Positions 1,137 through 16,388 of a stretch of 64,000 nucleotides of DNA are shown in pieces. Location: assembly GCF_006716125.1 (NCBI RefSeq), contig NZ_VFOM01000001.1, positions 1,550,001-1,614,000 of the forward strand, in the 5' to 3' direction. Each line of letters begins with the position of its first letter. Positions within the stretch are counted from its first letter, which is position 1. Under the pieces are notes generated by a model. That model was given only the letters and a program-made list of their open reading frames with translations. It was not told the DNA's origin and ran no database searches. A program made the translations under genes and the position numbers. This DNA is from Homoserinimonas aerilata. Its GTDB lineage: Bacteria; Actinomycetota; Actinomycetes; Actinomycetales; Microbacteriaceae.

Positions 1137-1137
1137 G

Positions 1138-1923: not shown

Positions 1924-1997
1924 CCGATCTCCTTTGAATCGTGTGCTGTGAGCGATGCGGTGGAGGCTCTCACGCCCCCACCGCATCGTCGTGCGTC

Positions 1998-3020
1998 CTA
2001 CGGTGCGGAGTCGAGGAGGACGTCGGACACCGAGACCTCATGATCGAGGTCACCGAGTTCGAACTGGGCATCGAGCATCTTCGTCCACGCGTCGCGGTAC
2101 GAGACCACGGTCAGCGGTTCGAGGACCATGCGGTTCGCGATGAAGTCCTCGGGGAACTTGCTGTACTCACGGTACACATCGCGCACGGCCTCAGGGTTCT
2201 CGCCGGCGAACTGGCTCGCCTCGTCCATCGCCGCGACGAAGGCCTCGATGACGCCGGGGTTCGCGGCGATATAGCTGTCGCTCGCCGCCCACACGATTTG
2301 CGGCGCACCGGGAAGGAACTCCCGCGCTCCCATGCCCATCTTCTCGAAGCCCTGGTCGACCGCGTTCAGGAAGAACACCGAGAAGGGAAGGATCGCATCG
2401 ACGGTTCCGCTCTTCGCAGCCTCCATGAGGGTGTCCACGGGGAGGTTGACGTAGCTGACCGTCGCGGGGTCCACGCCGTTCTCGGTGAGCGCGATGTTGT
2501 TGACGAGCTGCGGAAGACTGCCCAGACCCTGGATGCCCACGGTCTTGCCCTCGAGGTCGGACCAGTCCTTGATGGGGCTGCCCGGGGGAAGGAGGAGACC
2601 GTCGGTGGGCTCACCGTCGAAGTCGGGCTCGGCGCTCTTGGCCCCCGAGATGACCGAGACGGGGATTCCCTGGGCCACCGCACGCGCGATGTCGGGCCCG
2701 CCGGTCATCGCGATGTCGAGATCACCCGACACGAGCGACGCGATCTGAGTCGTGGGGTCACCACCGAGGCTGATCTCGGCCTTCAGCCCGTGCTTCTCGA
2801 AGAAGCCCTCGGTGTCGGCCAGGATGGTCGCCTCGAAGCCGCCCGGATTGCGACCGACCTTGATGTCTGTGATCTCCGCGCCACCGTCGCCTGCGCCTGC
2901 TCCGCCGTCACTGCTGGCCGTGTCGGGGCTGCACCCGACGAGGGCGATCGCGGCCGCTGAGACCGCGAGGGCGGCAACGAGAGTGCGGCCGATTCCTCGA
3001 GATGGTTGTGTCTTTCTCAC
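1998..3020 (-). CDS. ABC transporter substrate-binding lipoprotein, NMT1/SsuA-like
   Basis: 340 residues, GTG start with AAAGGAG six bases upstream. The N terminus is a lipoprotein signal (basic MRKTQPSRGIGR, hydrophobic core, lipobox LVGC with Cys30), followed by a Ser/Gly-rich linker. The mature part (DIKVGRNPGGFEATILADTE onward) matches the NMT1/SsuA/TauA binding-protein fold used for sulfonates, pyrimidines and some aromatic acids. First gene of the importer operon, behind a promoter carrying the motif shared by the island (3100-3146). The ligand is not known; the shared promoter suggests it is the substrate of the catabolic genes to the right. Confidence 0.9.
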   Translation of the reverse strand: MRKTQPSRGIGRTLVAALAVSAAAIALVGCSPDTASSDGGAGAGDGGAEITDIKVGRNPGGFEATILADTEGFFEKHGLKAEISLGGDPTTQIASLVSGDLDIAMTGGPDIARAVAQGIPVSVISGAKSAEPDFDGEPTDGLLLPPGSPIKDWSDLEGKTVGIQGLGSLPQLVNNIALTENGVDPATVSYVNLPVDTLMEAAKSGTVDAILPFSVFFLNAVDQGFEKMGMGAREFLPGAPQIVWAASDSYIAANPGVIEAFVAAMDEASQFAGENPEAVRDVYREYSKFPEDFIANRMVLEPLTVVSYRDAWTKMLDAQFELGDLDHEVSVSDVLLDSAP

Positions 3021-3099: not shown

Positions 3100-3146
3100 A
3101 GCGTATTGAGAGCGGCAGTGGCGCAGAAATCAGGAATCGGAATACC
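3100..3146 (-). promoter_or_regulatory. Island-type promoter of the ABC importer operon
   Basis: Read on the minus strand: GGTAT (from 3146), 15 bases later GATTTCTG (from 3131), 26 bases later the -10 hexamer TACGCT (3105-3100). Four other promoters of the island show the same elements at the same distances. The 14 bases GATTTCTGCGCCAC nearly match TATTTCCGCGCCAC of the promoter at 15022-15068. Likely a LysR-type activator site overlapping the -35 region; the transcript would start near 3093. Confidence 0.6.
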
Positions 3147-3181
3147 AGCTACTGGCCCGCCGCGATGCTGACGACGACACC

Positions 3182-3610
3182 TCAGTGCGGGATCCCGAGG
3201 TCACGGGAGTGACCGTCTGAGTCGGTGTGGACGAAGCTGTTGTAGGCGACGAGGATGTCCTTGAAACGTCCGGTCGCGTCGAATTCATACATGATGACGC
3301 CGTCGAATTCGAAGGTCTCGCCCTTCTTCACCGGGCCGAAGAGCGAGTCCTCACGGTCATGCCTCGCGGTGAAGAGTGTGTGCATCTGGATGGCCGCACC
3401 GTGGTCATCCGAGACGAAGCGGGGCACCGTCAGCTGCTCCACGAAATCTGGCCAGATCTTGTTCCGGTAGTGATCCTTCATCCCGTCGATTCCGGTGAAC
3501 TCGAGGGTTCCGTTCTTGACGTGCACATCGGCTGCCAGGAAATCGTCGAAGGTCGTGTCGTCCTCGGCATTGAAGCGGCTGATGTATTCGTCGAATCGCT
3601 CTCTGAGCAT
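3182..3610 (-). CDS. SnoaL-like / NTF2-fold small protein
   Basis: 142 residues. The frame reaches 15 codons further up, but AGGAGG eight bases before the ATG at 3610 fixes this start. The sequence (MLRERFDEYISRFNAEDD, then alternating hydrophobic strands and IDGMKDHYRNK) fits the SnoaL-like polyketide-cyclase/nuclear-transport-factor-2 fold, a cone-shaped pocket protein that can be an isomerase, hydratase or simple ligand binder. It precedes the importer operon on the same strand and has its own copy of the island promoter (3676-3722), which ties it to the catabolic regulon. No catalytic residues can be assigned with confidence. Confidence 0.75.
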   Translation of the reverse strand: MLRERFDEYISRFNAEDDTTFDDFLAADVHVKNGTLEFTGIDGMKDHYRNKIWPDFVEQLTVPRFVSDDHGAAIQMHTLFTARHDREDSLFGPVKKGETFEFDGVIMYEFDATGRFKDILVAYNSFVHTDSDGHSRDLGIPH

Positions 3611-3675
3611 TATCCGATCCTCCTGTTTCTCGCCGGTGTCGCAGACCGTATACACCTTTGTCGGCGGTGTTTTCG

Positions 3676-3722
3676 AGGCTATCCAGACCCTGAAGACACG
3701 GGAAATGGCATCCCCCCATACG
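3676..3722 (-). promoter_or_regulatory. Island-type promoter of the SnoaL-like gene
   Basis: Minus strand: CGTAT from 3722, 15 bases later CATTTCCC from 3707, 26 bases later the -10 hexamer TAGCCT (3681-3676). Spacing is identical to the promoters at 3100-3146 and 15022-15068. The site lies between divergent genes and could also influence the formylglycine-generating enzyme on the other strand. Confidence 0.55.
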
Positions 3723-3778
3723 TCCTATGCGTCCGGGCTATGTCAGGTCGGCGGCGTACCCGGCCGTCGTGTGCGAGC

Positions 3779-4660
3779 ATGGGGGCGATGACGATGATCA
3801 CCCTGCCCGGCGGCCGATTCCTGATGGGTTCGACTGCCTTCTACGACGATGAGGGGCCCGTTCGGGAGGTGACGGTCGAGCCGTTCGCCATCGACCGGGC
3901 ACCCGTCACGAACGCGCAGTTCGCCCTGTTCATCGAAGACACCGCATATGTCACAGTCGCCGAACAACGGCCGCGCCCCGAGGACTTCCCGGATGCGCCG
4001 ACCGCAATGCTCGTCCCGGGAGCGCTCGTCTTCACCGGCACGCGCGGCCCCGTCGATCTCCGCGACTGGCAGCAGTGGTGGTCGTGGGTTCCGGGAGCGC
4101 AGTGGCGCCACCCCTACGGCCCCGACAGCTCTATCACCGACCGCGATGGGCATCCCGTCGTGCAGGTGGCCTTCGCGGATGCCGTCGCCTACGCATCCTG
4201 GGCGGGCAAGAGACTCCCCACGGAGGCGGAGTGGGAGTTCGCGGCGCGCGGCGGCCTCGAGGGAGCCACCTACACCTGGGGGGAGGATGCCAAGCCCGAC
4301 GGCCACCCGCTGGCCAACACCTGGCAGGGGTCGTTCCCGTACCGCAACACGGGTGCGCGCGGCTGGGTGGGAACCTCGCCTGTCGGTGCCTTCCCTCCCA
4401 ACGGCTACGGTCTGCTGGACATGTGCGGAAACACCTGGGAGTGGACCGACGGCTTCTACGACACCCCTCCTCCCATGTCGAGCTGCGGCTGCTCCCCCGT
4501 CACCGAGGTGACCGGGTCGAGACGGGTGCTCAAGGGCGGATCCCACCTCTGCGCGCCCGAGTACTGCCTGCGCTACCGTCCCGCGGCCCGCTCGCCCCAG
4601 ACGGAGGACACGTCAACGACTCACATCGGGTTCCGATGTGTGCGCTCTGTTCGGCCCTAG
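3779..4660 (+). CDS. Formylglycine-generating enzyme (sulfatase-modifying factor)
   Basis: About 293 residues, one FGE-sulfatase domain. The start is uncertain: ATG codons at 3779, 3788 and 3794 are all possible, and GGGGG sits eight bases before the last. The C-terminal block GGSHLCAPEYCLRYRPAARS has both active-site cysteines (residues 258 and 263) in the HxCxxxYC setting of true aerobic, copper-dependent FGEs, unlike the many paralogues that lack them. By family it oxidises the Cys of a CxPxR motif in a sulfatase to formylglycine. No sulfatase is encoded in this window, so its client lies elsewhere. It is divergent from the SnoaL-like gene. Confidence 0.88.
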   Translation: MGAMTMITLPGGRFLMGSTAFYDDEGPVREVTVEPFAIDRAPVTNAQFALFIEDTAYVTVAEQRPRPEDFPDAPTAMLVPGALVFTGTRGPVDLRDWQQWWSWVPGAQWRHPYGPDSSITDRDGHPVVQVAFADAVAYASWAGKRLPTEAEWEFAARGGLEGATYTWGEDAKPDGHPLANTWQGSFPYRNTGARGWVGTSPVGAFPPNGYGLLDMCGNTWEWTDGFYDTPPPMSSCGCSPVTEVTGSRRVLKGGSHLCAPEYCLRYRPAARSPQTEDTSTTHIGFRCVRSVRP

Positions 4661-4684
4661 TCCACGCGCGACGCGCTCCCCGCT

Positions 4685-5482
4685 CTACCTCTGCTGGGAG
4701 CGCCGGATCGTGTCTGACATGTATTTGACGCCGCCCGACGACGAGAACCCACCATCGATGGGGATCTCGGCGCCTGTCACGTATGAGGCGAGATCGGAGA
4801 CCAGGAACCCGACGACGGCCGCGACCTCCTCCGGCTGCGCGGTGCGCTCGAGCGGGGTGAGGGCCAGCTGTGCCTCCGTCATGATCGCCGGCGCGTTCGC
4901 CATCATGGGGGTCTCGATGTAGCCGGGGTGCACGATGTTGACCCGGATGCCGCGGCCACCGTATTCGGTCGCGGCGACGTGTGTCAGCCCGCGCAGCCCC
5001 CACTTGCTCGCCGTGTACGACACCGTGTGGTGCGCGTTGAGGGCGGCAAGGGAGCCGACGTTGACGATCGAGCCGCCGTCGACCATGAGGGGTGCGAGCG
5101 ACTGGATGCCGAGCATCGGCCCGGTCAGGTTGATGCCGATGACGCGATTCCAGTCGTCGACGGCCATCTCGCCGAGCCTCGCGCGGAACGGGATGCCTGC
5201 GTTGTTGACGAGGCCGTGGACGGCGCCGCGCGCGGAGAGCTCCGCGACGAGCGCGGACCACTCCGCCTCGCTCGACACGTCGAGCCTGCGGAAGAGCACC
5301 TCGCCGGGCAGTCCCGCCGCGCTCTCGAGAAGCTCTGCGGCACCGTCGGTGATGTCCGTCGCGAAGACGGTTGCGCCGGATGCCGCGAGCAGCAGGCTCT
5401 CGGCGGCACCCTGACCCCCTGCCGCACCCGTGACGATGACGGTCTTGCCGGCGAGGCCGGGCAGCACCACTGGCGCGCTCAT
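4685..5482 (-). CDS. SDR family oxidoreductase
   Basis: 265-residue classical short-chain dehydrogenase. The nucleotide-binding motif TGAAGGQG lies near residues 19-26, NNAG follows, and the active site is YTASK with the preceding Ser in NVGSLAA, so it should be catalytically complete. DGGFSSSGG near the end is the usual C-terminal signature. The ATG overlaps the stop of the VOC gene (ATGA), making it the last gene of the leftward operon monooxygenase-cupin-VOC-SDR. It probably oxidises an alcohol or dihydrodiol intermediate with NAD(P); the substrate is unknown. Confidence 0.9.
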   Translation of the reverse strand: MSAPVVLPGLAGKTVIVTGAAGGQGAAESLLLAASGATVFATDITDGAAELLESAAGLPGEVLFRRLDVSSEAEWSALVAELSARGAVHGLVNNAGIPFRARLGEMAVDDWNRVIGINLTGPMLGIQSLAPLMVDGGSIVNVGSLAALNAHHTVSYTASKWGLRGLTHVAATEYGGRGIRVNIVHPGYIETPMMANAPAIMTEAQLALTPLERTAQPEEVAAVVGFLVSDLASYVTGAEIPIDGGFSSSGGVKYMSDTIRRSQQR

Positions 5483-5895
5483 GAGCCGACCGCCCCGCTG
5501 CGGTCGAGGAGTTCGATGAGGTTGCCCTCGGGATCGGCGACGAACGACATGCGCACGCCCGCCTCCGGGGACTGCTGGGGAGGCATCCGCTCGCTCGCAC
5601 CGGCCGCGAGCAGCGCGGCATGCGTGCCCTCGACGTCGGCGATGCGGAGCGCGATGTGGCCGTAGCCACGAGTCAGCAGGGCGGTCGCCGTGTCGGGCGC
5701 CTGCAGGCCGGGCTGCGAGCCCTCTCGTTCGAGGAGCTCGATCGCGAAGCCGTCGTCGCCTATGACGAATGTGCCGCGCAGCCCGATCGCGTCGATCGTG
5801 AACGGTGCGGATTCGCGCAGCCCGAGCGTGTCGCAGTACCAGCGCGTCATGGCCTCCAGGTCGGCGACGCTGAGCCCCACATGATCGAGGTGCAT
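5479..5895 (-). CDS. VOC family protein (glyoxalase/bleomycin-resistance fold)
   Basis: 138 residues starting MHLDHVGLSVADLEAM. An in-frame ATG 15 bases upstream exists, but AGGA six bases before 5895 favours the shorter form. The two beta-alpha-beta-beta-beta repeats of a vicinal-oxygen-chelate protein are visible, with possible metal ligands His in LDHVG, His in YGHIAL and Glu in NLIELLD. It could be a small extradiol-type dioxygenase, an epimerase or a lyase. Translationally coupled (four-base overlap) to the SDR gene and in the same operon as the flavin monooxygenase, so a role in the same pathway is likely. Confidence 0.82.
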   Translation of the reverse strand: MHLDHVGLSVADLEAMTRWYCDTLGLRESAPFTIDAIGLRGTFVIGDDGFAIELLEREGSQPGLQAPDTATALLTRGYGHIALRIADVEGTHAALLAAGASERMPPQQSPEAGVRMSFVADPEGNLIELLDRSGAVGS

Positions 5896-5917
5896 TCTGT
5901 GTCCTTTCATGGCATGC

Positions 5918-6472
5918 CTAGTCGTGCGGCCCGCCGTGCATGATGCCGGCGTGGATGTCGGGCAGCAGGTCGAGAAGCTCCCTGCCGAACTCGGCGTCGA
6001 TCAGGATGAACGCCACGCGCGCGACGGAATCGCTGCGGTTGGCCCAGGCGTGATCGGTTCCGCGCTGCACGACGACGTCGCCGGCCCTCAGCGTGACCTC
6101 GCTGTCGTCGAGCACGAGCACGATCTCACCCTCGAGCACGATGCCGTAGTCGATCGACTCGGTTCGGTGCACGGGCGACTGGTTGCCGAGCTCATTGATG
6201 TGGCCGGGGAAGAACTCGTTGATGCGGATCTTCGTGCCGAGCGCCGGAGGCGGAACCCTCAGCGTGCGCTGCGTCGGCTCCGACGGCTCCTCGGGCAGGA
6301 GAACGGCGGGCGCACCCTCGGTCTGCCAGATCTCGTAGAAACCGACGCCATCCTGCGGCATGACCTTGTGCACCGGAACGGGCCCGTCGGAGAGCACAAC
6401 GGAGACACCGTTCTCGTCATGACCGGTGACGACCCGTCGCGGGATCGTTCCCTCGGGCAGCTGCTCGCTCAT
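5918..6472 (-). CDS. Cupin domain protein
   Basis: 184 residues. One cupin_2 barrel occupies the C-terminal half: SIDYGIVLEGEIVLVLDD then LRAGDVVVQRGTDHAWANRS, which are cupin motifs 1 and 2. His in GTDHAW is present, but motif 1 lacks the usual HxH and reads EST-like, so metal binding is uncertain. Similar one-barrel cupins accompany flavin monooxygenases in several actinobacterial aromatic-degradation clusters, where their job is unclear (isomerase, dioxygenase or sensor). The ATG overlaps the monooxygenase stop by four bases. Confidence 0.82.
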   Translation of the reverse strand: MSEQLPEGTIPRRVVTGHDENGVSVVLSDGPVPVHKVMPQDGVGFYEIWQTEGAPAVLLPEEPSEPTQRTLRVPPPALGTKIRINEFFPGHINELGNQSPVHRTESIDYGIVLEGEIVLVLDDSEVTLRAGDVVVQRGTDHAWANRSDSVARVAFILIDAEFGRELLDLLPDIHAGIMHGGPHD

Positions 6473-7587
6473 ACGGGCTCCGCCACCTTCGCGAGCGACG
6501 ACTCCATGAGCTTCGCCGGGTCCGCGCCGGGCGTGCCGGGGTGCAGCTCCCAGTCGACCATCTTCATGGAGGCGTCGACGACCATCTTCACGCGCGGCAG
6601 ACGGCGCCCCTCGAACTCGGTGAGCAGCTGCTCGAGCTCTCCATCGCGGGTCACATAGTCGGCGAGCAGCACCGCATCCTCAGCACACATCGCCGCACCC
6701 TGCGCGATGAGCGGCGGGCAGGCGTGCACGGCGTCGCCGATCGCGATCACGCGGCCGCGGTGCCACGAGCCCTCAACAAGCAGCCACTCGATGGGCTGGA
6801 AATTCATGTAGGTGTCTTCTGTGATGCTCTCGCGCAGGTGATCCCACGGGCCGTGGTAACCCTCGGCGAGCTCGCGGACGATCTCGGCGTTCGTGCGCCC
6901 GTCGTCCGGCCTGACCGGATCGGTGAGGATGTACGCGTAGCACTCGGTCGCGGAGATGGGCGCATACCCCGCCTTGTACCAGGGGCCGTGGTAGAACACT
7001 GCGGCGCCGTCCATGTCGGGGGTGCGCGATGTCACGAAACGCCAGATCCCCATGCCGCTGGGCCCGGGGCGCTCCGACATGCCGAGAACCTCGCGAGTGG
7101 CAGAACGGATGCCGTCGGCCGCGATCACCAGGTCGAATGTCTCAGTCTCGCCGGTCGACAGGCTTGCCTCGACCCCCGCATCCGTCTCAGCGAACGCGGT
7201 GGCCGTGACGCCGAGGCGCACATCAATGCCGAGGGCGCGGATCTCGTCGACGAGCACCGTCTGCAGGTCGGCGCGCAGCGTGCCGAGCGTCGCCGGCAGG
7301 TCAGGGCCGCCCGTGCGGGGCGTCGGGACCTTGACGAGCGTGTGGCCATCCGCGTGGCGCACATCGATGTCGTAGAACGGCACGCCGCCCGCGATGATCT
7401 TGTCGGCGAGGCCGATCTGCTCGAAGGCCCGCAGCGCGTTGCCGTGCACGGTGATGCCGTGGCCCACACCGAACCACTGCGGTGAGATCTCGACGAGCGT
7501 CACATCGACACCCTTCTGGGCCAGGGCGATGGAGACGACCGAGCCGGTCACTCCCCCGCCGATCACGAGGACTCTCTTCACGGTCAT
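6469..7587 (-). CDS. FAD-dependent (class A) aromatic-type monooxygenase
   Basis: 372 residues from MTVKRVLVIGGG; an upstream extension of 20 codons is less likely, since GGAG lies 11 bases before this ATG. It has the full set of class A flavoprotein hydroxylase motifs: GGGVTG at residues 10-15 for ADP, the DG motif ADGIRSATR near 158, and GDAVHACPP near 284-292. By family it uses NAD(P)H and O2 to hydroxylate an activated ring. It heads the leftward operon behind the island-type promoter at 7648-7695, so it probably makes the first or second attack on the imported compound. The substrate cannot be inferred. Confidence 0.9.
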   Translation of the reverse strand: MTVKRVLVIGGGVTGSVVSIALAQKGVDVTLVEISPQWFGVGHGITVHGNALRAFEQIGLADKIIAGGVPFYDIDVRHADGHTLVKVPTPRTGGPDLPATLGTLRADLQTVLVDEIRALGIDVRLGVTATAFAETDAGVEASLSTGETETFDLVIAADGIRSATREVLGMSERPGPSGMGIWRFVTSRTPDMDGAAVFYHGPWYKAGYAPISATECYAYILTDPVRPDDGRTNAEIVRELAEGYHGPWDHLRESITEDTYMNFQPIEWLLVEGSWHRGRVIAIGDAVHACPPLIAQGAAMCAEDAVLLADYVTRDGELEQLLTEFEGRRLPRVKMVVDASMKMVDWELHPGTPGADPAKLMESSLAKVAEPV

Positions 7588-7647
7588 CTGTGCACCGTCT
7601 CCAATCAAGGCATGCGTCGTTGCAGCGCTGTCGTGCCGCTCCAGCAC

Positions 7648-7695
7648 ACGCTACGGATGCACGACCGGATGGGGGAAGTAAGCGAACGTGATGCC
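7648..7695 (-). promoter_or_regulatory. Island-type promoter of the monooxygenase operon
   Basis: Minus strand: GGCAT from 7695, 15 bases later TACTTCCC from 7680, 27 bases later the -10 hexamer TAGCGT (7653-7648), identical to the -10 at 15063-15068. The transcript would start near 7641, giving a leader of about 54 bases. Probable binding site of one of the two LysR regulators. Confidence 0.58.
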
Positions 7696-7735
7696 AGCCA
7701 TAGCCGGGAGCCATACCGCGCGCGGCGACCGCAGA

Positions 7736-8635
7736 TCAGGCGGGGACGCCCTCGAGCAGGGTCTCGCGCAACCAGACGTGCGCTGGGTCGCTGTCGTGGG
7801 CCGGATGCCACCACAGGGTCTCGATGATCTCCACCTCGCCGAACGGCGTCGGAACGCCGATCGTGCCCGTCGTCGGCCCGAGTCGCTCAGCGAGCCGGCG
7901 CGGCACCACCGCCACGAGGTCGGTCCCGGCGATCGCGCTCGGCAGCGGCAGAAAGCTGTTCGTCGTGACCCGGGCCACCCGCGGGAAGCCCAGCTCCCGG
8001 AGTCGGCGGTCCGCCGGTGTGTGATGGGCCTGCCCGAAGTTGGCCACCGCCTGCGGCAGCCCTCTGAACGCATCCCAACTGAGCTGCCCGTCGATGAGGG
8101 CCGGGTTGTTGCTGTCGACGAGGCAGACGTAGACATCCCGGAACAGAGTGCGGCTGTTGCCCTCTATGCCGATTCCGGGAACGGCGGCCACGAAGTCGCT
8201 CTTGAGCAGGTCGCGTTCACTCGAGGTCGGCTGGGCCGGCAGCGGCAGCATGTCGATGCGGATGCCGGGGGCCGCGTCGAGCGCCCGGGTCACCATGGGC
8301 TGCAGCTCGGTCATCGCGAAGTCCGAGCCGCGGATCGTGTAGCTGCGATACGAGGTCAGGGGGTCGAACGGCCCCTCACTGCCGAGGGCGCGTTCGATGA
8401 GCGGGATGGTGCGCTGCACCTGGGGCAGCAGCAGCCGGGCGAGTGGCGTCAGCTCGTAGTCACGCCCCACCCGCACGAGGAGCTCGTCGTTGTACTGCTG
8501 ACGAAGGCGGGCGAGGGCAGAACTCATTGCCGACTGCCCCACCTGCAGCCTGTCCCCTGCGCGCGTGACGTTCGTCTCCTCTAGCAGTGCGCGCAGCGCC
8601 ACGAGGAGGTTGAGATCTTTGCCTGCCAGATTCAT
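7736..8635 (-). CDS. LysR-family transcriptional regulator
   Basis: 299 residues: winged helix-turn-helix at residues 5-65 (LNLLVALRALLEETNVTRAG then LARLRQQY), followed by a LysR substrate-binding domain. Ribosome site GAGAGG precedes the ATG. It shares a recognisable block (LARLRQQY, LLVR.GR.YELTP) with the second LysR gene at 17851-18780, so the two are paralogues of one NodD-like branch. It lies just upstream of the monooxygenase operon and divergent from the exporter. It is a candidate for the protein that reads the shared island promoter motif; the inducer is unknown. Confidence 0.92.
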   Translation of the reverse strand: MNLAGKDLNLLVALRALLEETNVTRAGDRLQVGQSAMSSALARLRQQYNDELLVRVGRDYELTPLARLLLPQVQRTIPLIERALGSEGPFDPLTSYRSYTIRGSDFAMTELQPMVTRALDAAPGIRIDMLPLPAQPTSSERDLLKSDFVAAVPGIGIEGNSRTLFRDVYVCLVDSNNPALIDGQLSWDAFRGLPQAVANFGQAHHTPADRRLRELGFPRVARVTTNSFLPLPSAIAGTDLVAVVPRRLAERLGPTTGTIGVPTPFGEVEIIETLWWHPAHDSDPAHVWLRETLLEGVPA

Positions 8636-8763
8636 GCGGGCCTCTCTCCCTCGTCGGCGGTGACATCAGGCTAGCAAGCGGCGACGGTGCCGGATGCCCA
8701 CAGATACGAGGTATCGAAGCGGCCGCTTGTCTCCTTCCGCCCGCAGACGGCACAATGTCTCGC

Positions 8764-10032
8764 ATGCCCACCACGGTCGATGCGTCGACGCCCTCGACCG
8801 ACCGCCGCCTCCCCGTCGTGCTGCTCGTACTCATCGGATCGTTGGGCGCGGTGGGACCGCTGGGCACAGACCTCTATCTGCCCGCGCTGCCGGAGATGGC
8901 CTCCGATCTCGTCACATCCGCCGCTCTCATCCAGGCGACGCTCATGTCGTTCACGATCGGGCTCGCGGCCGGTCAGCTTCTGCTCGGTGCGCTCTCCGAC
9001 CGCTTCGGACGGCGCCGCCTGCTCATCGCGGGTGCCGTCATCTCGGTCGTGAGCTGCGCGCTCTCCGCCCTCGCCCCCACGATCGGACTGCTCATCCTGT
9101 GGCGGGCCGTGGCCGGGGCGAGTGCCGCCGCGGGACTCGTGATCGGCCGTGCCGTCGCCACCGATCTGACGACGGGCCACGAGACGACCAGAATATTCAG
9201 CATCCTCGGCCTGATCACGGGAATCGGCCCGATAGCCGGTCCGCTGCTCGGCGCGCTCGTGCTCGAGGTCAGCGACTGGCGCACCATCTTCTGGGTACTG
9301 ACCACCATCTGCGCCGCGCTGCTCATCGGCGTCATCATCCTGTTGCCCGAGACGCTGCCCGCCGAGCGGAGGCACAGCGGTGGGATCACAGACCTGCTAC
9401 GTACGGGCGGCCGGATTCTGGCGACCCGAGGATTCACGACGCATGCCGCAGCACTCTGCCTCGGCTTCGCCGCGATCTTTGGCTACATCTCCGCCTCACC
9501 GTTCGTGCTGCAGACGATGCTCGGCTTCAGCCCGACCGCCTACACCGTCGTCTTCGCGGTCAACGGTGTCGGCCTCATGATCACGGGCACGATCGCATCC
9601 GTTCTGGCGCGAAGGGTCGCGGCCGCCCGGATCGCTGCGGTGGGCATCGCGATCCTGCTGCTCGGCGGCGGGGCGCTGTGCGCCATCGCAGCGACAGGCG
9701 CGATCACGCCGTTCACCGTTCTGCCCGCCCTGTTCCTCGTCGGGTCGTCGATGGGGCTCGTCTTCGGGCCTGCGACAGCGCTCGCCATAGCGCAGGTGCG
9801 TCACGCATCCGGTACTGCCCTCGCCCTTCTCGGCTGCGGACAGTTCGTGCTCGCCGGGATCGCGGCACCGCTCGTCGGAATCGCCGGGGAGGCGTCGATC
9901 GTGCCGCTCGCCGTCGTCGTCACCGTCGGCGGCCTCGGCGCCGCAGTCTGCCTTGCCGCAGGGCGCGGGCACCGTGGCGAGCAGGAGGCCACTGCGGCCT
10001 CCCCCGAACACGAGGCAACGATTCCGGAATGA
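8764..10032 (+). CDS. MFS transporter, Bcr/CflA drug-resistance type
   Basis: 422 residues, twelve predicted membrane segments. The N-terminal LGTDLYLPALPEMA and the loop GALSDRFGRRRLL are signatures of the Bcr/CflA proton-driven exporter family. CACAAT seven bases before ATG 8764 suggests a leaderless message; ATG 8755 in the same frame is the alternative. The hydrophilic tail carries the Glu-rich EQEATAASPEHEATIPE. Set between the two catabolic operons, it may export the toxic substrate or an intermediate, or act as an uptake route. Confidence 0.9.
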   Translation: MPTTVDASTPSTDRRLPVVLLVLIGSLGAVGPLGTDLYLPALPEMASDLVTSAALIQATLMSFTIGLAAGQLLLGALSDRFGRRRLLIAGAVISVVSCALSALAPTIGLLILWRAVAGASAAAGLVIGRAVATDLTTGHETTRIFSILGLITGIGPIAGPLLGALVLEVSDWRTIFWVLTTICAALLIGVIILLPETLPAERRHSGGITDLLRTGGRILATRGFTTHAAALCLGFAAIFGYISASPFVLQTMLGFSPTAYTVVFAVNGVGLMITGTIASVLARRVAAARIAAVGIAILLLGGGALCAIAATGAITPFTVLPALFLVGSSMGLVFGPATALAIAQVRHASGTALALLGCGQFVLAGIAAPLVGIAGEASIVPLAVVVTVGGLGAAVCLAAGRGHRGEQEATAASPEHEATIPE

Positions 10033-10034
10033 GT

Positions 10035-10082
10035 GGTATCCCCCACGGCTATTTCCGGACCGCCACCGCCCGAACCTACGAT
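10035..10082 (+). promoter_or_regulatory. Island-type promoter of the dioxygenase operon
   Basis: GGTAT at 10035-10039, 15 bases later TATTTCCG at 10050-10057, 27 bases later the -10 hexamer TACGAT at 10077-10082. Same architecture as four other promoters in 3.1-15.1 kb. Starts immediately after the exporter stop codon, so the dioxygenase operon has its own promoter. Confidence 0.6.
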
Positions 10083-10135
10083 CGAGAGTGCCGGCAGGCG
10101 CAGGGTTGCGCCGTCGCAGGAGAAGGAGCCCCACG

Positions 10136-11074
10136 ATGACCGACCGCCTCATCACCCATTTGCGATACCTCGCGCTGGCGATGCCGAACCTCGACACCGA
10201 GCTCGAGTTCTTCACGAAGTACTGGGGGCTCACCCAGGTCGACCGCGTCGATGACACCGTGTACCTGGCCGCGGAGGGTTCCCCCGAGCAGTTCATCGTG
10301 CGCCTGCGCAAGGCCGAGAAGCGCATCGATGTCATCGCCTTCGGCGCGGCGAACCGCGACGACGTGCACGCCCTGCATGACAGCCTCGCAGCGAAGGGTG
10401 TGCAGATCGTTCACGAGCCGCGCGAACTCACCCAGCCGGGCGGCGGCTACGGTTTCAGGTTCTTCGACCTCGACGGTCGCACGATCGAGATCTCGTCTGA
10501 CGTCGCCGTACGCGCGCACCGCAGGATCGAGTCACGCGAGCCCATCCCGGTGCGCCTCTCGCACGTCGTCGTCAACTCGGCCAACGCATCCGCCCTGCGC
10601 GAATGGTACGAGGAGCACCTCGGCTTCGCGCTGAGCGATGTGCTGTTCAGCCAGAAGATGGGCGACCTCATGTACTTCATGCGCTGCAACGAGCACCACC
10701 ACTCGTTCGCGATCGCTCAGGGCCCCCACAACTCTCTTCACCACGCATCGTTCGAGATGCGCGGAATCGAGGAGTGGATGCGCGGCACCGGCAAGATCCT
10801 GCGCAGCGGCGCCCGCATGGTGTGGGGCCCCGGCCGGCACAACGCCGGCGACAACACCTTCGCCTACTTCATCGACCCGGCAGGCAACACGCTCGAATAC
10901 ACGACCGAGTTGGCGATCATCCAGGACGAGGACAACTGGCACCCCAGCCGCCTCGACGTGGACCTGACGACGACGCAGGATCAGTGGGGCACCGCCAACG
11001 AGATGAACGAGTACGTCGCGAGGGAGTCGTTCAACGACATCGACAAGGGCATGTTCGTCGCACCGCCCGTCTGA
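10136..11074 (+). CDS. Extradiol ring-cleavage dioxygenase, type I (VOC)
   Basis: 312 residues, ATG with AAGGAG seven bases upstream. Two-domain vicinal-oxygen-chelate protein like 2,3-dihydroxybiphenyl 1,2-dioxygenase. The C-terminal domain keeps the iron triad: His143 (LSHVVV), His203 (LHHASFE) and Glu254 (NTLEYTTEL), so Fe(II) binding and ring cleavage are expected. The N-terminal domain (HLRYLALAMPNLD) is the usual degenerate copy. First gene of the rightward operon. Known family reaction: meta-cleavage of a catechol-type ring; which catechol is not visible. Confidence 0.9.
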   Translation: MTDRLITHLRYLALAMPNLDTELEFFTKYWGLTQVDRVDDTVYLAAEGSPEQFIVRLRKAEKRIDVIAFGAANRDDVHALHDSLAAKGVQIVHEPRELTQPGGGYGFRFFDLDGRTIEISSDVAVRAHRRIESREPIPVRLSHVVVNSANASALREWYEEHLGFALSDVLFSQKMGDLMYFMRCNEHHHSFAIAQGPHNSLHHASFEMRGIEEWMRGTGKILRSGARMVWGPGRHNAGDNTFAYFIDPAGNTLEYTTELAIIQDEDNWHPSRLDVDLTTTQDQWGTANEMNEYVARESFNDIDKGMFVAPPV

Positions 11075-11134
11075 TCTGGCTCTGTCACACCCTTCAGCGC
11101 AGCACGACTGCACCCACTCGATGAGGAGGACGCC

Positions 11135-11899
11135 TTGGCACGACTCGATGGAAAGATCGCGCTCATCACCGGAATCGGCGGAGGCATGGGCCGCGCCGCA
11201 GCACTCCGTTTCACTCAGGAGGGCGCCCGCGTCGTCGGCTGCGACCTCTTCGAGGAGGGTGCCGCCGAGACGGTGCGCCTCGTGCGCGAGGCCGGCGGGG
11301 AGATCGAGAACTTCGCGCCCGTCGATCTGTCGGATGCCGCGGCGTCAGCCGAATGGGTGGATGCTGCGGCGGCCGTGTACGGCGGCATCGACATCCTCTA
11401 CAACAACGCCTCGACCCCCCGCTTCGGAGCCGTCGACGAGATCTCGATCGAGGACTGGGACTTCACGATCGACAACGAGCTCAACCTCGTCTTCTACGCC
11501 TGCAGGGCGGCCTGGCCCCATCTGAAGAAGCGCGGCGGCGTCATCGTCAACGTCGGGTCGATCGCGGGCACGCGCGGCGTCGAGTTCATGCCCCAGAACG
11601 CGCACGGCACCGCGAAGGCCGGCGTCATCAACCTGACCCAGCAACTCGCCGTCGAGGGTGGCCCGCACGGCATCCGCGTCGTCTGCGTCAGCCCGGGCTT
11701 CACCGTCACCCCGTCGACGGCCTGGCTCGTCGAGTCGGGGCCGCAACCACTGCTGGACAATCTCGCCCGCATCCCGCTCGGACGGGTGGGCCAACCGGAG
11801 GACATCGTGAACGCAAGCCTCTTTCTCGCCTCAGACGAGGCATCCTGGATCACCGGCATCAATGTCGTCGTCGACGGCGGAGGGTCGGTGCTGGGATGA
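11135..11899 (+). CDS. SDR family oxidoreductase with His in place of the catalytic Tyr
   Basis: 254 residues, TTG start after a near-perfect AGGAGG six bases upstream. NAD-binding motif TGIGGGMG at residues 12-19, YNNAS near 89-93, Ser142 in GSIAG. The active-site motif reads HGTAK (His157, Lys161) where classical SDRs have YxxxK. I recall a recurring actinobacterial subfamily with AHGxAK, so this is probably a functional variant rather than decay; that is memory, not a search. The last four bases overlap the start of the flavin oxidase gene. Confidence 0.88.
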   Translation: MARLDGKIALITGIGGGMGRAAALRFTQEGARVVGCDLFEEGAAETVRLVREAGGEIENFAPVDLSDAAASAEWVDAAAAVYGGIDILYNNASTPRFGAVDEISIEDWDFTIDNELNLVFYACRAAWPHLKKRGGVIVNVGSIAGTRGVEFMPQNAHGTAKAGVINLTQQLAVEGGPHGIRVVCVSPGFTVTPSTAWLVESGPQPLLDNLARIPLGRVGQPEDIVNASLFLASDEASWITGINVVVDGGGSVLG

Positions 11900-13287
11900 T
11901 CATCGACACGGATCTCGAGTTCACGGGCCGCATCGTCACGCCGGATGCCCCGGACTGGGACGACGCCCGCGTCGGACGCATGTTCAACGGGCGCCGCCCG
12001 GGCCGCCAGCCTGCAGCGGTTCTCGTCGCCGAGAACGAGCAGGACATCGTCAACGGCGTCAGGCTCGCGCGTGCCAACGGCTGGTCGGTCGTGACCCGCT
12101 CCGGCGGTCACTCCTGGGCAGGCTGGACGGTTCAGGACGGAACCCTGCTGATCGACATCGGCAATCTGCAGGACATCCGCTACGACGACGAGACCAAGAT
12201 CGTGAGCGCGCAGCCCGCGGTCAAGGGCGGCGACGTTCTCTCCCCCTTCCTCGAGGAGCGCGGCCGCTTCTTCAACGGTGGCCACTGCCCCTCCGTCGGC
12301 ATCGGCGGCTTCCTGCTCCAGGGCGGCCAGGGCTGGAACCAGCGCGGATGGGGCTGGGCTGCCGAAAGCGTCGTCGCAATCGATGTCGTCACGGCAGAGG
12401 GCATCCTCGTGCGTGCCGACGAGAAGGAGAACAGCGACCTGTTCTGGGCCGCCCGCGGTGCGGGCCCCGCCTTCCCTGGCGTCGTCACCCGTTTCCACCT
12501 CGCGACGCGGGAGAAGTTCGGGTTCCTCGGCCACACGGTGCAGGCCTTCGAGCTCGATGACTTCAGCCCCGTCATGACGTGGCTGTACGAGACGCACAAG
12601 AGCGTGTCGACGGATGTCGAGATCGTCGCCGTCAGCACCCCGACTCCCCTGCCCGACGGCACGGAGCGCCGAGTGCTGCTCGTCACCGCGGTCGCGCTCG
12701 TCGCCGACAGGGCAGCCGCGGAGGAGGCGCTCGCCCCGTTCGCCGCGAATCCGTATCTCGATCGCGCCGTCTTCTCCTTCCACTGCAAGGAGTCGTCGCT
12801 CGCCGAGCAGCGAGCACAGCAGGAGCTGCAGAACCCCGAGCACTGGCAGTACCTCACCGACAACGCGTGGGTTCAGGGCGACGACCATGCCGACGTCGTC
12901 GAGCACATCCGCCCGCTGTTCGCCGACATCCCGACCGAGCGCGGCTTTGCGATCTGGATGAGCAACGGGCCGACGCGCGAGCTGCCCGACATGGCCTTCT
13001 CGCTGCAGACAGAGGCCTACGTCGCCTCGTACACCGTCTACGAGGACCCGACCGAGTTCCAACGCAACCGCGACTGGCTGAACGGTGCCTTCGAACACGC
13101 CCAGCCGGTCACCGCCGGTCAGTACCTGGGCGACAGCGACATGACCAACCGCCAGCTCAAGTTCATGGGCACCGAACAGTTCGCCAAGCTTCAGCAGATC
13201 TGGGCTGATCGCGACCCCGACGGCCGCTTCGTGAGATACCTTGCGAAGGACCCCGCAACCGTCAACCGCAACCACTGGCAGCTCTAA
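11896..13287 (+). CDS. FAD-binding oxidoreductase, berberine-bridge-enzyme-like
   Basis: 463 residues. An FAD_binding_4 (PP-loop) domain spans roughly residues 35-205, followed by a substrate domain and a C-terminal BBE segment ending NRNHWQL. His72 in TRSGGHSW and Cys131 in NGGHCPSVG sit where bicovalent flavoproteins (8alpha-histidyl, 6-S-cysteinyl FAD) anchor their cofactor, so bicovalent attachment is predicted. Relatives include 6-hydroxy-D-nicotine oxidase and oligosaccharide oxidases. Coupled to the SDR by an ATGA overlap. A likely O2-dependent oxidation of a bulky alcohol, amine or sugar part of the substrate. Confidence 0.9.
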   Translation: MIIDTDLEFTGRIVTPDAPDWDDARVGRMFNGRRPGRQPAAVLVAENEQDIVNGVRLARANGWSVVTRSGGHSWAGWTVQDGTLLIDIGNLQDIRYDDETKIVSAQPAVKGGDVLSPFLEERGRFFNGGHCPSVGIGGFLLQGGQGWNQRGWGWAAESVVAIDVVTAEGILVRADEKENSDLFWAARGAGPAFPGVVTRFHLATREKFGFLGHTVQAFELDDFSPVMTWLYETHKSVSTDVEIVAVSTPTPLPDGTERRVLLVTAVALVADRAAAEEALAPFAANPYLDRAVFSFHCKESSLAEQRAQQELQNPEHWQYLTDNAWVQGDDHADVVEHIRPLFADIPTERGFAIWMSNGPTRELPDMAFSLQTEAYVASYTVYEDPTEFQRNRDWLNGAFEHAQPVTAGQYLGDSDMTNRQLKFMGTEQFAKLQQIWADRDPDGRFVRYLAKDPATVNRNHWQL

Positions 13288-13297
13288 GGAGAATCGG

Positions 13298-13804
13298 ATG
13301 CGCATCCATCTGGCCGCAGACCACGCCGGCTATCAGCTGGGCCGGGCCCTTGAGGCCTCGCTCAGCGCATCCGGTCATGACGTCCTCTGGCACGGGGCAG
13401 CCGCCTACGACGAGGGCGACGACTACCCGCCGTTCGCGATCGCTGTGGCCCACGCGGTCATAGAAGACGAGGATGCCGGAGTCGAGGCCCGCGGCGTCGT
13501 CGTCGGTGCCACGGGCGCAGGCGAGAACATCGCAGCCAACAAGGTGAACGGTGCTCGGGCTGTGACCGGCCTCTCGATCGATTTCGTGACGGCCGCCCGC
13601 CTCCGCGTCGACGCGAACATCGTCACGCTCGGCGTCGACTTCGTCGACGAGGCGCTGGCGACCTCGCTTGTGGCCACACTCGTGGATGCCCCCTTCGGGG
13701 TCGAGACCGGTGACGTTCGCCGCATCATGAACACCGCCGAATACGAGAATGCCGGCACGATCGAAGGCTGGAACGCCCAAGAGTTCGACAACATCGCCGA
13801 CTAG
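13298..13804 (+). CDS. RpiB/LacA/LacB-family isomerase (mycobacterial type)
   Basis: 168 residues, AAGGAG six bases before the ATG. N-terminal MRIHLAADHAGYQLG has the conserved Asp8/His9 of ribose-5-phosphate isomerase B. The phosphate loop reads GATGAGENIAANK: the Cys that serves as base in E. coli RpiB is Gly70 here, but Glu76 stands where mycobacterial RpiB uses Glu as the base, so activity is plausible. About ten bases behind the flavin oxidase and in front of an oxidoreductase, so it belongs to the catabolic operon. It probably isomerises an aldose/ketose-like intermediate rather than serving central metabolism. Confidence 0.88.
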   Translation: MRIHLAADHAGYQLGRALEASLSASGHDVLWHGAAAYDEGDDYPPFAIAVAHAVIEDEDAGVEARGVVVGATGAGENIAANKVNGARAVTGLSIDFVTAARLRVDANIVTLGVDFVDEALATSLVATLVDAPFGVETGDVRRIMNTAEYENAGTIEGWNAQEFDNIAD

Positions 13805-13849
13805 CCGCGATCATCTCCCACCGGCATCCACCTTCTGTAAGGAGACCCC

Positions 13850-14776
13850 ATGCCCCAGGCCGTTCGCTATGACGAGTTCGGACCGCGCGATGTCCTGTAC
13901 ATCGCAGAAGAAGCCCGCACGGAACCCGGAACGGGCGAGGTCTCCATCGCCGTGCAGGCAGTGGGGCTGAACCCGTTCGACATGAAGGCCCGAATGGGAG
14001 TCATTCCCTTCGCCGACCCGGGATTTCCGCGCGGCATCTGCAGTGACTTCGCCGGCGTGGTCGACGCCGCCGGTGCTGATGCACGCTACTTCGACGGAAC
14101 AGCCATCACCATCGGTGACGAGGTGCTCGGCTGGGGCGATGGCACGCTCCGCGAGCAACTTCTCGTGACGGCCGGCCACATCGTGAAGAAACCCGAAGGC
14201 GTGCCGTGGGAGGTCGCCGGCTCGCTGACGACGCCCGGGCTGACCGCGCAGGCGTCGATCGACACCCTCGACATCGGCGCGGGCGACACCGTGCTCGTCA
14301 GCGCCGCAGCCGGTGCCGTCGGCATCCTCTATTCACAGCTCGCCATCGCCCGCGGCGCCACCGTCGTCGGTACCGCGAGCGAACGCAACCACGAACTGCT
14401 GCGCTCCCTCGGCGTCATCCCCGTGACCTACGGCGACGGCCTCGTCGAGCGCGTGCGCGCGGCTGCCCCCGATGGCGTGACGGCGGCGCAGGACAACTTC
14501 GGTCGCGAGACCATCGACGCGGCCCTCGCCCTCGGCCTTCCGCCCCAGCGCATCTGCGGGATCGTCGACCATGCGGCCACGGCCGAGCTGGGACTCGCCA
14601 GCCCGGGACGCTACGTACGGTCGCCTGCGACGCTGCTGCGCCTGGCCGAGGCTTGTCGCTCCGGCGACCTCATGCTGCCTGTGCAGAAGGTGTTCGGCCT
14701 CGACGGGCTCGACGCGGCCTTCGAACTGCTCGAGGGTCGTCACCTGAGCGGCAAGGTCGTCATCGCGATGGCATAG
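13850..14776 (+). CDS. NADPH:quinone-oxidoreductase-like (zinc-free MDR) protein
   Basis: 308 residues, AAGGAG five bases before the ATG. An alcohol-dehydrogenase-like GroES domain (VQAVGLNPFDMKARMG, then GICSDFAGVV) is followed by a Rossmann domain with AAAGAVGILYSQLA, typical of quinone reductase/zeta-crystallin members of the medium-chain superfamily. The cysteines and histidines for structural and catalytic zinc are absent, as usual for this branch. Last gene of the first rightward operon; probably an NADPH-dependent enone or quinone reductase acting on a pathway intermediate. Confidence 0.87.
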   Translation: MPQAVRYDEFGPRDVLYIAEEARTEPGTGEVSIAVQAVGLNPFDMKARMGVIPFADPGFPRGICSDFAGVVDAAGADARYFDGTAITIGDEVLGWGDGTLREQLLVTAGHIVKKPEGVPWEVAGSLTTPGLTAQASIDTLDIGAGDTVLVSAAAGAVGILYSQLAIARGATVVGTASERNHELLRSLGVIPVTYGDGLVERVRAAAPDGVTAAQDNFGRETIDAALALGLPPQRICGIVDHAATAELGLASPGRYVRSPATLLRLAEACRSGDLMLPVQKVFGLDGLDAAFELLEGRHLSGKVVIAMA

Positions 14777-14798
14777 CTGCCGTGCATGACTTCCATCG

Positions 14799-15065
14799 AT
14801 GATCTCGCATGGCCCGGATGCGAGCCTCAGCGCTGAGGCGCAGACGGCACTTGACACGGCATACGAGGGCATCGGCAGCGACCTCGCCGACCTCACCGCG
14901 GTGACCCCCGAGTCGGGCAGGGTGCTCTACGTCGTCTCGTGCGGCGAGCAGGTTCCCAGCTGTGCGGTTCCCGCGGCGGGCGTCAAGTCAGCGGCTGACA
15001 GCGATGCATTCGGTGATGCCAGTCATCCACCGGGCCTATTTCCGCGCCACGCAGGCTCGCCATAG
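14799..15065 (+). pseudogene. Fossil of a periplasmic sugar-binding (Peripla_BP_4) protein gene
   Basis: An 88-codon frame whose middle reads like the start of the mature part of an ABC binding protein of the ribose/autoinducer type: SLSAEAQTALDTAYEG, then SGRVLYVVSCGEQVPSCA and PAAGVKSAADS. Signal peptide, ribosome site and the remaining 250 or so residues are missing, and the reading frame loses family character after SAADS, just where the next promoter begins. I interpret it as the remnant of a deleted transporter gene. Family recognition is from memory of the GxxVxxxSCG..xPxC pattern, so moderate confidence. Confidence 0.5.
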
Positions 15066-15068
15066 CGT
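15022..15068 (+). promoter_or_regulatory. Island-type promoter of the ABM-FAH-ALDH operon
   Basis: GTCAT at 15022-15026, 15 bases later TATTTCCG at 15037-15044, 26 bases later the -10 hexamer TAGCGT at 15063-15068. Matches four other island promoters in element order and spacing. The transcript would start near 15075, leaving a leader of about 42 bases with GAAAGGA before the ABM gene. Confidence 0.6.
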
Positions 15069-15116: not shown

Positions 15117-15410
15117 ATGGCCATCGTTCTGAGCGCCACCTGGATCGCCAAAGAGGGCAGCGAGGAGACCGTTCGCGAAGCCCTCGAGCACCTCGCCCCC
15201 GCCTCACGCACCGAGGAGGGCAACATCTACTACCAGGCCTACCAGGACCCGGCAGAGCCCCGCGTGTTCCGCATCTTCGAGGTCTACAAGGACGACGCCG
15301 CAGTGAAGGCACACACCGAGTACGAGCACTTCACGCAGTGGGCGGCAGGCCAGGCCATCCCCGCCCTCGAGGAGCGCAAGCGCGACTTCTACGAGACCCT
15401 CGACTACTAA
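15117..15410 (+). CDS. Antibiotic-biosynthesis-monooxygenase (ABM) domain protein
   Basis: 97 residues, the full length of a single ABM/dimeric alpha-beta barrel domain. Features: MAIVLSATWIAKEGSEE, the helix-strand EEGNIYYQAYQDP, and FRIFEVYKDDAAVKAHTEYEHF, the usual F.ixe.w.d..a...H..s.hf pattern. Such proteins are cofactor-free quinol monooxygenases (YgiN type) or small intermediate-handling proteins. First gene of the second rightward unit, behind its own island promoter and 12 bases before the hydrolase gene. A role in oxidising or detoxifying a quinol intermediate fits the context but is inference. Confidence 0.85.
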   Translation: MAIVLSATWIAKEGSEETVREALEHLAPASRTEEGNIYYQAYQDPAEPRVFRIFEVYKDDAAVKAHTEYEHFTQWAAGQAIPALEERKRDFYETLDY

Positions 15411-15422
15411 GAAACCCTCACC

Positions 15423-16388
15423 ATGAAGATCGCCCGGTACGAGCACAACGGATTCCCACACGTGGGAATCGTGAACCACGGCAAGGTCAACTCCCTGCCG
15501 GACGGAACCGATGTCCTCGAGACGTTGAACCTTCCCCTGGATGCGCAGTACCGCCTCCAGGCGAGCGCGGGACGCCACCACCGGGTTCCCCTCGAGGATG
15601 TGCGCTTCCTGCCACCCATCGAGCCGCGGGCCATGCGCGACTTCGTGGCGTTCGAGGCGCACATCACGGGCATGAAGAAGGCAGAGCCGGGCGACGGCAG
15701 TGTTCCCGAGGCCTGGTACGAGGCCCCGGCCTTCCTCTTCATGAACCCGTGGTCGCTGACCGCACCGGGCGCCGACATCCCCATGCCGCCGCTCACGAAG
15801 GCGCTCGACTACGAGGTCGAGGTCGCCGCGATCGTGGGCACCGCAGCCCGTGACGTCACGCCAGAGCAGGCACGCGAGCACATCGTCGGCTACGCGATCT
15901 TCAACGACTGGTCTGCCCGCGACATCCAGGGCCGTGAGATGCAGGTCGGCCTCGGCCCGTCGAAGGGCAAGGACTTCGCGAACACGCTGGGCCCATGGAT
16001 CACGACGCCCGACGAGCTGGAGAAGTTCCGGCTCGCGGATGGGCGACTCGATCTCGAGATGAGCGTCACCATCAACGGCGTTCAGACCGGCAGCGACAGG
16101 CTCTCGAACCTGTCCTGGACCTTCGAAGAGCTCGTCTCGCACGCCTCCCGCGATGCCTGGGTCGGAGCGGGCGACGTGCTCGCGACCGGAACCTGCGCAT
16201 CCGGCTCCCTCGCGGAGCTGTGGGGTCGTGCCGGCAGGCAGGACCCGCCGCCCCTCACAGTCGGCGACGTCATCAGCATCACCGTTCAGGGCCTCGGAAC
16301 CCTCACCAACCGCATCAGCCCTCAGACCAGCACGGGAGTGCCCGTGCCGCCCGCATGGAGCCGGCGCCAGCCCAAGGAATCACCATGA
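15423..16388 (+). CDS. Fumarylacetoacetate hydrolase family protein
   Basis: 321 residues: a short N-terminal domain and a C-terminal FAH fold from about residue 75. The acidic metal ligands are present in DYEVEVAAIVG and FNDWSARD, and GKDFANTLGPWI is the family's active-site loop. This family hydrolyses or decarboxylates acylpyruvates and 2-hydroxy-dienoates made by meta ring cleavage. Together with the extradiol dioxygenase upstream and the aldehyde dehydrogenase downstream it gives the lower part of a meta-cleavage pathway. No clear ribosome site; probably translated by coupling. The stop overlaps the next ATG. Confidence 0.9.
   Translation: MKIARYEHNGFPHVGIVNHGKVNSLPDGTDVLETLNLPLDAQYRLQASAGRHHRVPLEDVRFLPPIEPRAMRDFVAFEAHITGMKKAEPGDGSVPEAWYEAPAFLFMNPWSLTAPGADIPMPPLTKALDYEVEVAAIVGTAARDVTPEQAREHIVGYAIFNDWSARDIQGREMQVGLGPSKGKDFANTLGPWITTPDELEKFRLADGRLDLEMSVTINGVQTGSDRLSNLSWTFEELVSHASRDAWVGAGDVLATGTCASGSLAELWGRAGRQDPPPLTVGDVISITVQGLGTLTNRISPQTSTGVPVPPAWSRRQPKESP

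Follow-up and report, generated by a model that had tools for sequence, protein, structure and literature searches.

Which promoter element is shared by the operons of a putative aromatic catabolic gene block in Homoserinimonas aerilata, and which regulator reads it? The question is raised by a stretch of 64,000 nucleotides (nt), called the window throughout (contig NZ_VFOM01000001.1, positions 1,550,001 to 1,614,000). An earlier note had described there, before five transcription units, a GGTAT-like box followed by a second box and a -10 hexamer, and had proposed that two LysR genes control a catabolic regulon that ties uptake to breakdown. Our analysis suggests that one of the two proteins, LysR1 (7736-8635), controls a local catabolic regulon and that the motif is its operator, a reading to which we assign a probability of about 0.78.

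The shared element is a 13-bp dyad

LysR1 matches at E 1e-45 or better were found in 40 of 398 family genomes, that of H. aerilata included. Twelve other family genomes encode a LysR1 of 57-73% identity, and in the stretches of at most 20 kb fetched from them the cluster is complete or partial. In L034, the first of these loci, GATAGTTRCTATY stands 48 nt before a -10 in both the monooxygenase and the extradiol promoter, and the GGTAT box is thus the right half of a dyad. The element is a dyad of 13 bp with the predominant form (G/C)ATR-N5-YAT(C/T/G); from its first base to a TANNNT -10 the distance is 48 (47-49) nt. With this dyad as anchor, the monooxygenase, extradiol and ABM promoters of relatives line up consistently, except for the ABM promoter of L076, which has no convincing dyad and was left out (one of 29) before a matrix was built. 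The matrix was made from the remaining 28 promoters of relatives (10 monooxygenase, 12 extradiol and 6 of 7 ABM), among which only one AT in each half is invariant. This alignment led us to reject GGTAT plus ATTTCC as the whole motif. The element described earlier is real, but its GGTAT is half of the dyad and its second box corresponds to a less conserved half-site proximal to the -35 position.

The -10 element was not used in placing the dyads. TANNNT nevertheless starts at +48 in 23 of the 28 training promoters and at +47 to +49 in all of them. Random pieces of the same loci, anchored in the same way, reached the full dyad score in 1008 of 20000 cases and combined the dyad with the -10 in 171 of 20000.

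When both strands of the window were scanned with this matrix, ranks 1 to 8 fell on the ABM, SnoaL, monooxygenase, LysR1-MFS (two strands), ABC and extradiol (two strands) sites, in this order. The six sites are the following.

3141-3153, minus strand: dyad AGTAGCTGGTATT before the NMT1-type ABC importer operon; -10 TACGCT at 3100-3105; rank 6, total 15.1
3717-3729, minus strand: dyad CATAGGACGTATG before the SnoaL-like gene; -10 TAGCCT at 3676-3681; rank 2, total 20.3
7690-7702, minus strand: dyad TATGGCTGGCATC before the flavin adenine dinucleotide (FAD) monooxygenase operon; -10 TAGCGT at 7648-7653; rank 3, total 20.1
8703-8715, no strand assigned: sixth site GATACGAGGTATC, between LysR1 (minus) and the MFS gene (plus); top core score in the window, 16.1; total 16.4
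10028-10040, plus strand: dyad AATGAGTGGTATC before the extradiol dioxygenase operon; -10 TACGAT at 10077-10082; rank 8, total 13.3
15015-15027, plus strand: dyad GATGCCAGTCATC before the ABM-FAH-ALDH operon; -10 TAGCGT at 15063-15068; rank 1, total 21.8

Second boxes lie downstream of the five dyads that have a -10.

10051-10056, plus strand: ATTTCC, downstream half-site or -35 box of the extradiol promoter, the second box of the earlier note
3125-3130, minus strand: equivalent box
3701-3706, minus strand: equivalent box
7674-7679, minus strand: equivalent box
15038-15043, plus strand: equivalent box

The five sites listed in the earlier note (3146, 3722 and 7695 on the minus strand, 10035 and 15022 on the plus strand) were found at these places and strands, with the 15-nt offset and the -10 hexamers as described; the distance from dyad start to TANNNT is +48 in three and +49 in two. 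The sixth site, at 8703-8715, was absent from that list and was added by the matrix from relatives; no -10 stands 46-51 nt from it.

Across ten Markov-1 resampled windows the best totals ranged from 10.4 to 15.5, to be compared with 20.1-21.8 for the ABM, SnoaL and monooxygenase sites, while the total of the LysR1-MFS site, 16.4, is barely above the maximum of the resampled windows. The ABC importer site is the weakest and least certain of the six: its left half-site is imperfect, and two of the ten resampled windows had a higher best match. The extradiol site, which overlaps the last bases of the MFS gene (stop codon 10030-10032), is not significant alone and is backed by its orthologous promoters. 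A further dyad-like match, AATGGGAGTCATT at 13993-14005, ranked tenth in the window scan; it lies inside the ADH gene, has no -10 and is probably due to chance.

The two-box pattern of the earlier note was also examined as it stood. In its strict form, GKYAT-N11-AYTTCYS, it fits four of the five sites, the CGTAT of the SnoaL promoter falling outside GKYAT. Its spacing is indeed unlikely to arise by chance, with four matches in the window for 0.08 expected and none of 100 shuffles reaching four. With the dyad plus TTYC as a looser pattern and one mismatch allowed, the window gave 10 matches for 2.64 expected. The search of the organism's own genome (2,840,896 bases) that had been called for returned 13 strict matches, compared with two in the reversed control. 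Seven of the nine outside the block overlap open reading frames (ORFs) of at least 110 amino acids. Of the other two, L006 falls within an 88-amino-acid ORF and L012 at the margin of one of 119 amino acids; L012 has neither a left half-site nor, by eye, a fitting -10. The dyad plus TTYC pattern matched the genome 10 times (control, 2), and a TANNNT 44-52 nt away was present only in the three matches of the block and in none of the seven others, six of which overlap an ORF; the extradiol site is itself flagged as ORF-overlapping in the genome scans. No regulon member elsewhere in the genome was found with the dyad plus TTYC pattern, which misses the monooxygenase and ABC sites and so does not give a full count.

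Held-out clusters carry the dyad in place

Genome contigs were then scanned with a LysR1 alignment, and the best 80 of 199 relatives were kept, giving 78 loci. Ten of these (L093-L098, L111, L112, L116 and L123) are training contigs and were set aside, which left 17 close, 6 intermediate and 45 far loci. The held-out genera include Microbacterium, Agromyces, Demequina, Tersicoccus, Leucobacter, Actinospica and Nocardioides.

At a score of at least 17, the matrix matched 58 times in the 17 close loci, and 47 of these matches fall in the zone 60-140 nt upstream of cluster genes, which covers 15,200 of 660,490 strand-bases. Sites were found before 13 of 14 monooxygenase and 13 of 14 extradiol genes, the two misses scoring 16.5 and 16.8, and before 8 of 11 FAD oxidase (FADox), 6 of 9 aldehyde dehydrogenase (ALDH) and 4 of 7 ABM genes. 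L100 and L127, like L102 and L114, overlap on one contig each, so that some of these sites, above all those of ALDH, are counted twice. None of 18 LysR1 genes in the close loci had a site at the matrix threshold, their dyads being without the -10 spacing.

The intermediate loci gave eight matches, five of them in place, and L119 gave none. The site is found together with its -10 in Demequina, a genus of Micrococcales outside Microbacteriaceae, and in Actinospica (Catenulisporales); it stands before no cluster gene in the Actinospica record L118 and before the extradiol gene in L120. The 45 far loci, which have similar enzymes and LysR homologs of 34-46% identity, gave six matches, none of them before a cluster gene. 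The enzymes alone therefore do not predict the site. In relatives the element, the cluster and LysR1 are conserved together, which supports the earlier proposal that a LysR protein governs a catabolic regulon through a common regulatory element.

LysR1 is the likely regulator

LysR1 has the winged helix-turn-helix (PF00126, 2.9e-13) and the substrate-binding domain (PF03466, 3.7e-09) of LysR proteins, and its gene adjoins the monooxygenase and extradiol promoters in syntenic loci. A dyad scoring at least 10 was found upstream of 22 of 35 LysR1 orthologs, the window included, compared with one of 18 for LysR2. Among distant LysR1 homologs (43 of the 45 far loci were used), 13 of 43 have an upstream score of at least 8 and five of 43 a score of at least 12, compared with 10 of 860 and 0 of 860 random control places, respectively. 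At these distant homologs the dyad follows LysR1 rather than the enzymes. The presence of the dyad upstream of LysR1 orthologs and before some distant homologs makes LysR1 the likely regulator as judged from sequence. The earlier note had placed two LysR genes inside the block and considered both as regulators: LysR1 does lie within 3100-15068, LysR2 (about 17866-18780) lies just downstream, and the evidence favours LysR1. As a side observation, the Microbacterium cluster L103 holds two copies of LysR1, at 9992 and 17470, about 7.5 kb apart.

Several observations weigh against this assignment. Thirteen of the 35 LysR1 orthologs have no upstream dyad, among them most loci with a divergent MFS neighbour (L034, L078-L080, L082, L084, L086 and L089 face the MFS gene and have none; the window and L076 have one), and many of the 22 dyads found are the site that serves the divergent extradiol gene, hence not independent. 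Other cluster genes often have no site in the close loci (SDR2, 3 of 14; SnoaL, 0 of 6). In the window, the ABC and extradiol totals fall inside the range of the resampled windows. The dyad anchor was derived from the window and L034, so the presence of the dyad in the training promoters is partly circular, a circularity from which the -10 spacing and the held-out sets are free; both controls, the random pieces and those for the far homologs, consist of random, mostly coding places and not of matched intergenic DNA. R1, a model built only from the sequences of relatives' promoters, picks out just one window site, that of ABM, at E up to 5; in the organism's own genome, where 150 of 1255 first-look candidates were scored, it gave the ABM site at E 0.11 and a match on contig C2 at E 0.63, and this model is too insensitive. 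The general LysR consensus is given as CTATA-n9-TATAG, or T-n11-A, in an excerpt of PMC5002191; the conserved dyad itself has T-N7-A and does not follow this rule, which in the window is followed by the dyad's right half paired with the -35-proximal half-site, a pair only partly conserved in relatives. Finally, LysR2 (55-66% identity) was found in all ten genomes searched, whose fetched LysR1 stretch had shown no copy, and is present in most syntenic loci, so that it may share the site.

This distribution of LysR2 would fit a model in which LysR1 and LysR2 act together on a shared asymmetric site, either as heteromers or as separate regulators that read one operator. The DNA-binding domains of the two proteins look alike, and the dyad has an asymmetric centre, with a preference for T and G at two positions on one side. 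Such asymmetry is also expected, however, of a tetramer reaching toward the -35 box. Moreover, the dyad is all but missing upstream of LysR2 genes, some distant LysR1 homologs retain it at their own gene, and the G173 stretch holds only a weak LysR2 match (34%). We regard joint action as unlikely, and slightly more doubtful still is its broader version, in which the two proteins, for instance as a hetero-oligomer, would jointly read one asymmetric operator and switch on an aromatic pathway widespread in Actinomycetes. Short dyads are common to many regulator families, and a protein encoded elsewhere, of the GntR or TetR type for example, could bind this one; yet the LysR genes are the only regulators common to the clusters, among the window and L034 genes compared, and the recurrence of the dyad at LysR1 homologs of distant genomes makes an outside regulator improbable.

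The position of the second box at -35 and the near-constant distance to the -10 might instead reflect a common type of core promoter, made of -35 and -10 boxes with some upstream sequence and containing no operator. Conservation is strongest 36-48 nt upstream of the -10, beyond the core promoter, and the bases there form a dyad; this dyad also occurs upstream of LysR1 with no fixed -10 distance, and among the 10 genome matches to dyad plus TTYC the full architecture is restricted to the block. A core-promoter explanation thus seems highly improbable. Chance resemblance after scanning many promoters has in its favour that the pattern was picked retrospectively from five sites and does not fit one of them. 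A matrix made from other genomes recovers the sites and the held-out loci agree; with the matrix ranking, these loci and the window shuffles together, chance was rejected and its probability is negligible. Control by LysR1 thus remains our preferred reading, and it supplies a candidate pair of transcription factor and operator, with exact sites, for a cluster present in several Microbacteriaceae and some other Actinomycetes. The operator could be used to ask, genome by genome, which genes belong to the pathway, and a reporter carrying it could identify the inducer.

Promoter anatomy and comparison with known LysR systems

The promoters share one order: the dyad comes first, then a half-site at -35, and the -10 last. 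With a transcription start assumed some 7 nt beyond the -10, the dyad would lie at roughly -60 to -48. LysR recognition sites lie near -65 and activation sites near -35 and -10, according to an excerpt of PMC4730206. The predicted dyad upstream of the -35 box, with the second box at -35, would fit this layout of recognition and activation sites.

To describe the second box, we used 53 held-out promoters, which are distinct sequences from 22 loci (L119, having no matches, was left out). The box is partially conserved, with T at column 45 in 40 of 53. AT at the position expected for ATC-N9-GAT occurs in 16 of 53 held-out and in 6 of 28 training promoters, the neighbouring columns giving 5 and 8. 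ATC-N9-GAT is the motif given for the nod box in an excerpt of PMC5596368. As in the nod box of NodD, all five downstream pairs in the window read AT(C/T/G)-N9-NA(T/C), with the spacing of ATC-N9-GAT. The fuller nod box also holds GAT-N7-ATC. Unlike in the nod box, it is this inner GAT-N7-ATC pair that is universally conserved here, the next half-site being present only in part of the relatives. A 47-bp tetramer site of the nod-box type, with four equal half-sites, was rejected: the outermost half-site was found in 4 of 53 held-out promoters, which equals the background and is no enrichment.

The solved structures best matched by the LysR1 profile are 1uth, 2uyf, 2uye, 5ae5 and 1utb (E 7e-42), all of which we take to be DntR; the entries are named LysR-type regulatory protein (1uth and 1utb) and regulatory protein (2uye). 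Among solved LysR structures, LysR1 is thus closest by profile match to the NahR/DntR branch. The operator sequence of DntR, NagR and NahR differs from the dyad described here. These proteins are self-regulated, divergent activators of aromatic pathways, as excerpts of PMC3180648 and PMC4730206 describe. The present system resembles that branch in the predicted position of its site upstream of the -35 box and differs from it in its Actinomycete host, in an operator repeated before several operons and in its set of enzymes.

We propose that LysR1 would recognise the dyad, at about -60 to -48, with high affinity and reach from there to the weaker half-site at the -35 box. Binding of an aromatic inducer to LysR1 would then activate the monooxygenase, extradiol and ABM promoters. 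LysR1 may also repress its own gene from the 8703-8715 site. From this dyad to a downstream TAGCCT, a likely -10 of LysR1, the distance is about 42 nt, some 6 nt shorter than in the other promoters, and such a position would suit self-repression.

Gene block and predicted pathway

The genes of the block and its surroundings, as assigned by Pfam and NCBIfam, are listed below.

261-3020, minus strand: ABC importer, with an NMT1/THI5-like binding protein and two permeases
3182-3610, minus strand: SnoaL-like gene (ATG at 3610)
4685-7587, minus strand: operon of the FAD monooxygenase (ATG at 7587), a cupin, a VOC protein and an SDR protein
7736-8635, minus strand: LysR1, the most likely regulator (PF00126 and PF03466)
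8755-10032, plus strand: MFS transporter (stop codon 10030-10032)
10136-14776, plus strand: extradiol (VOC) dioxygenase, SDR, EncM-like FAD oxidase, RpiB-like protein and ADH (also by matches to solved structures)
15117-17776, plus strand: ABM monooxygenase, FAH-family hydrolase and ALDH
about 17866-18780 (start codon approximate), plus strand: LysR2, behind ALDH on the same strand

These genes probably encode the hydroxylation of an aromatic ring, its meta cleavage and then the hydrolysis of the product, and an aromatic meta-cleavage pathway would be the natural reading of the set. By sequence, the top solved match of the extradiol enzyme is 3b59, and those of the FAH protein are FAH-family hydrolases, decarboxylases and isomerases. 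Among the open-licence papers listed in searches for this pathway or its regulation, none dealt with it, as judged from titles and the first part of abstracts. The ABC importer and the SnoaL gene appear to have been added in this genome. The tie of uptake to breakdown that the earlier note proposed is based on the importer site of this one genome, and no SnoaL ortholog of the close loci has a site of its own.

Some genes of the block and of its relatives deserve mention in their own right. A gene with an FGE-sulfatase domain (3788-4660) lies between the SnoaL and SDR genes and is divergent from SnoaL; the SnoaL site occupies the gap common to both genes, with no fitting -10 toward the FGE-sulfatase-domain gene. 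Locus L034 encodes, at 9158-10315, a hydrolase whose top solved match is 2,6-dihydroxypseudooxynicotine hydrolase, and a tblastn search of the window returned no clear counterpart of it (best E 0.98). The FAD oxidase (about 11881-13287) has EncM as its top solved match by sequence. EncM is known from antibiotic synthesis; here the gene sits within an apparently catabolic operon, and an EncM-like flavin oxidase gene occurs in many related clusters. The same aromatic-pathway operon includes a gene for an RpiB-like sugar-phosphate isomerase (13298-13804), a homolog of which is present in 12 of the 17 close held-out loci.

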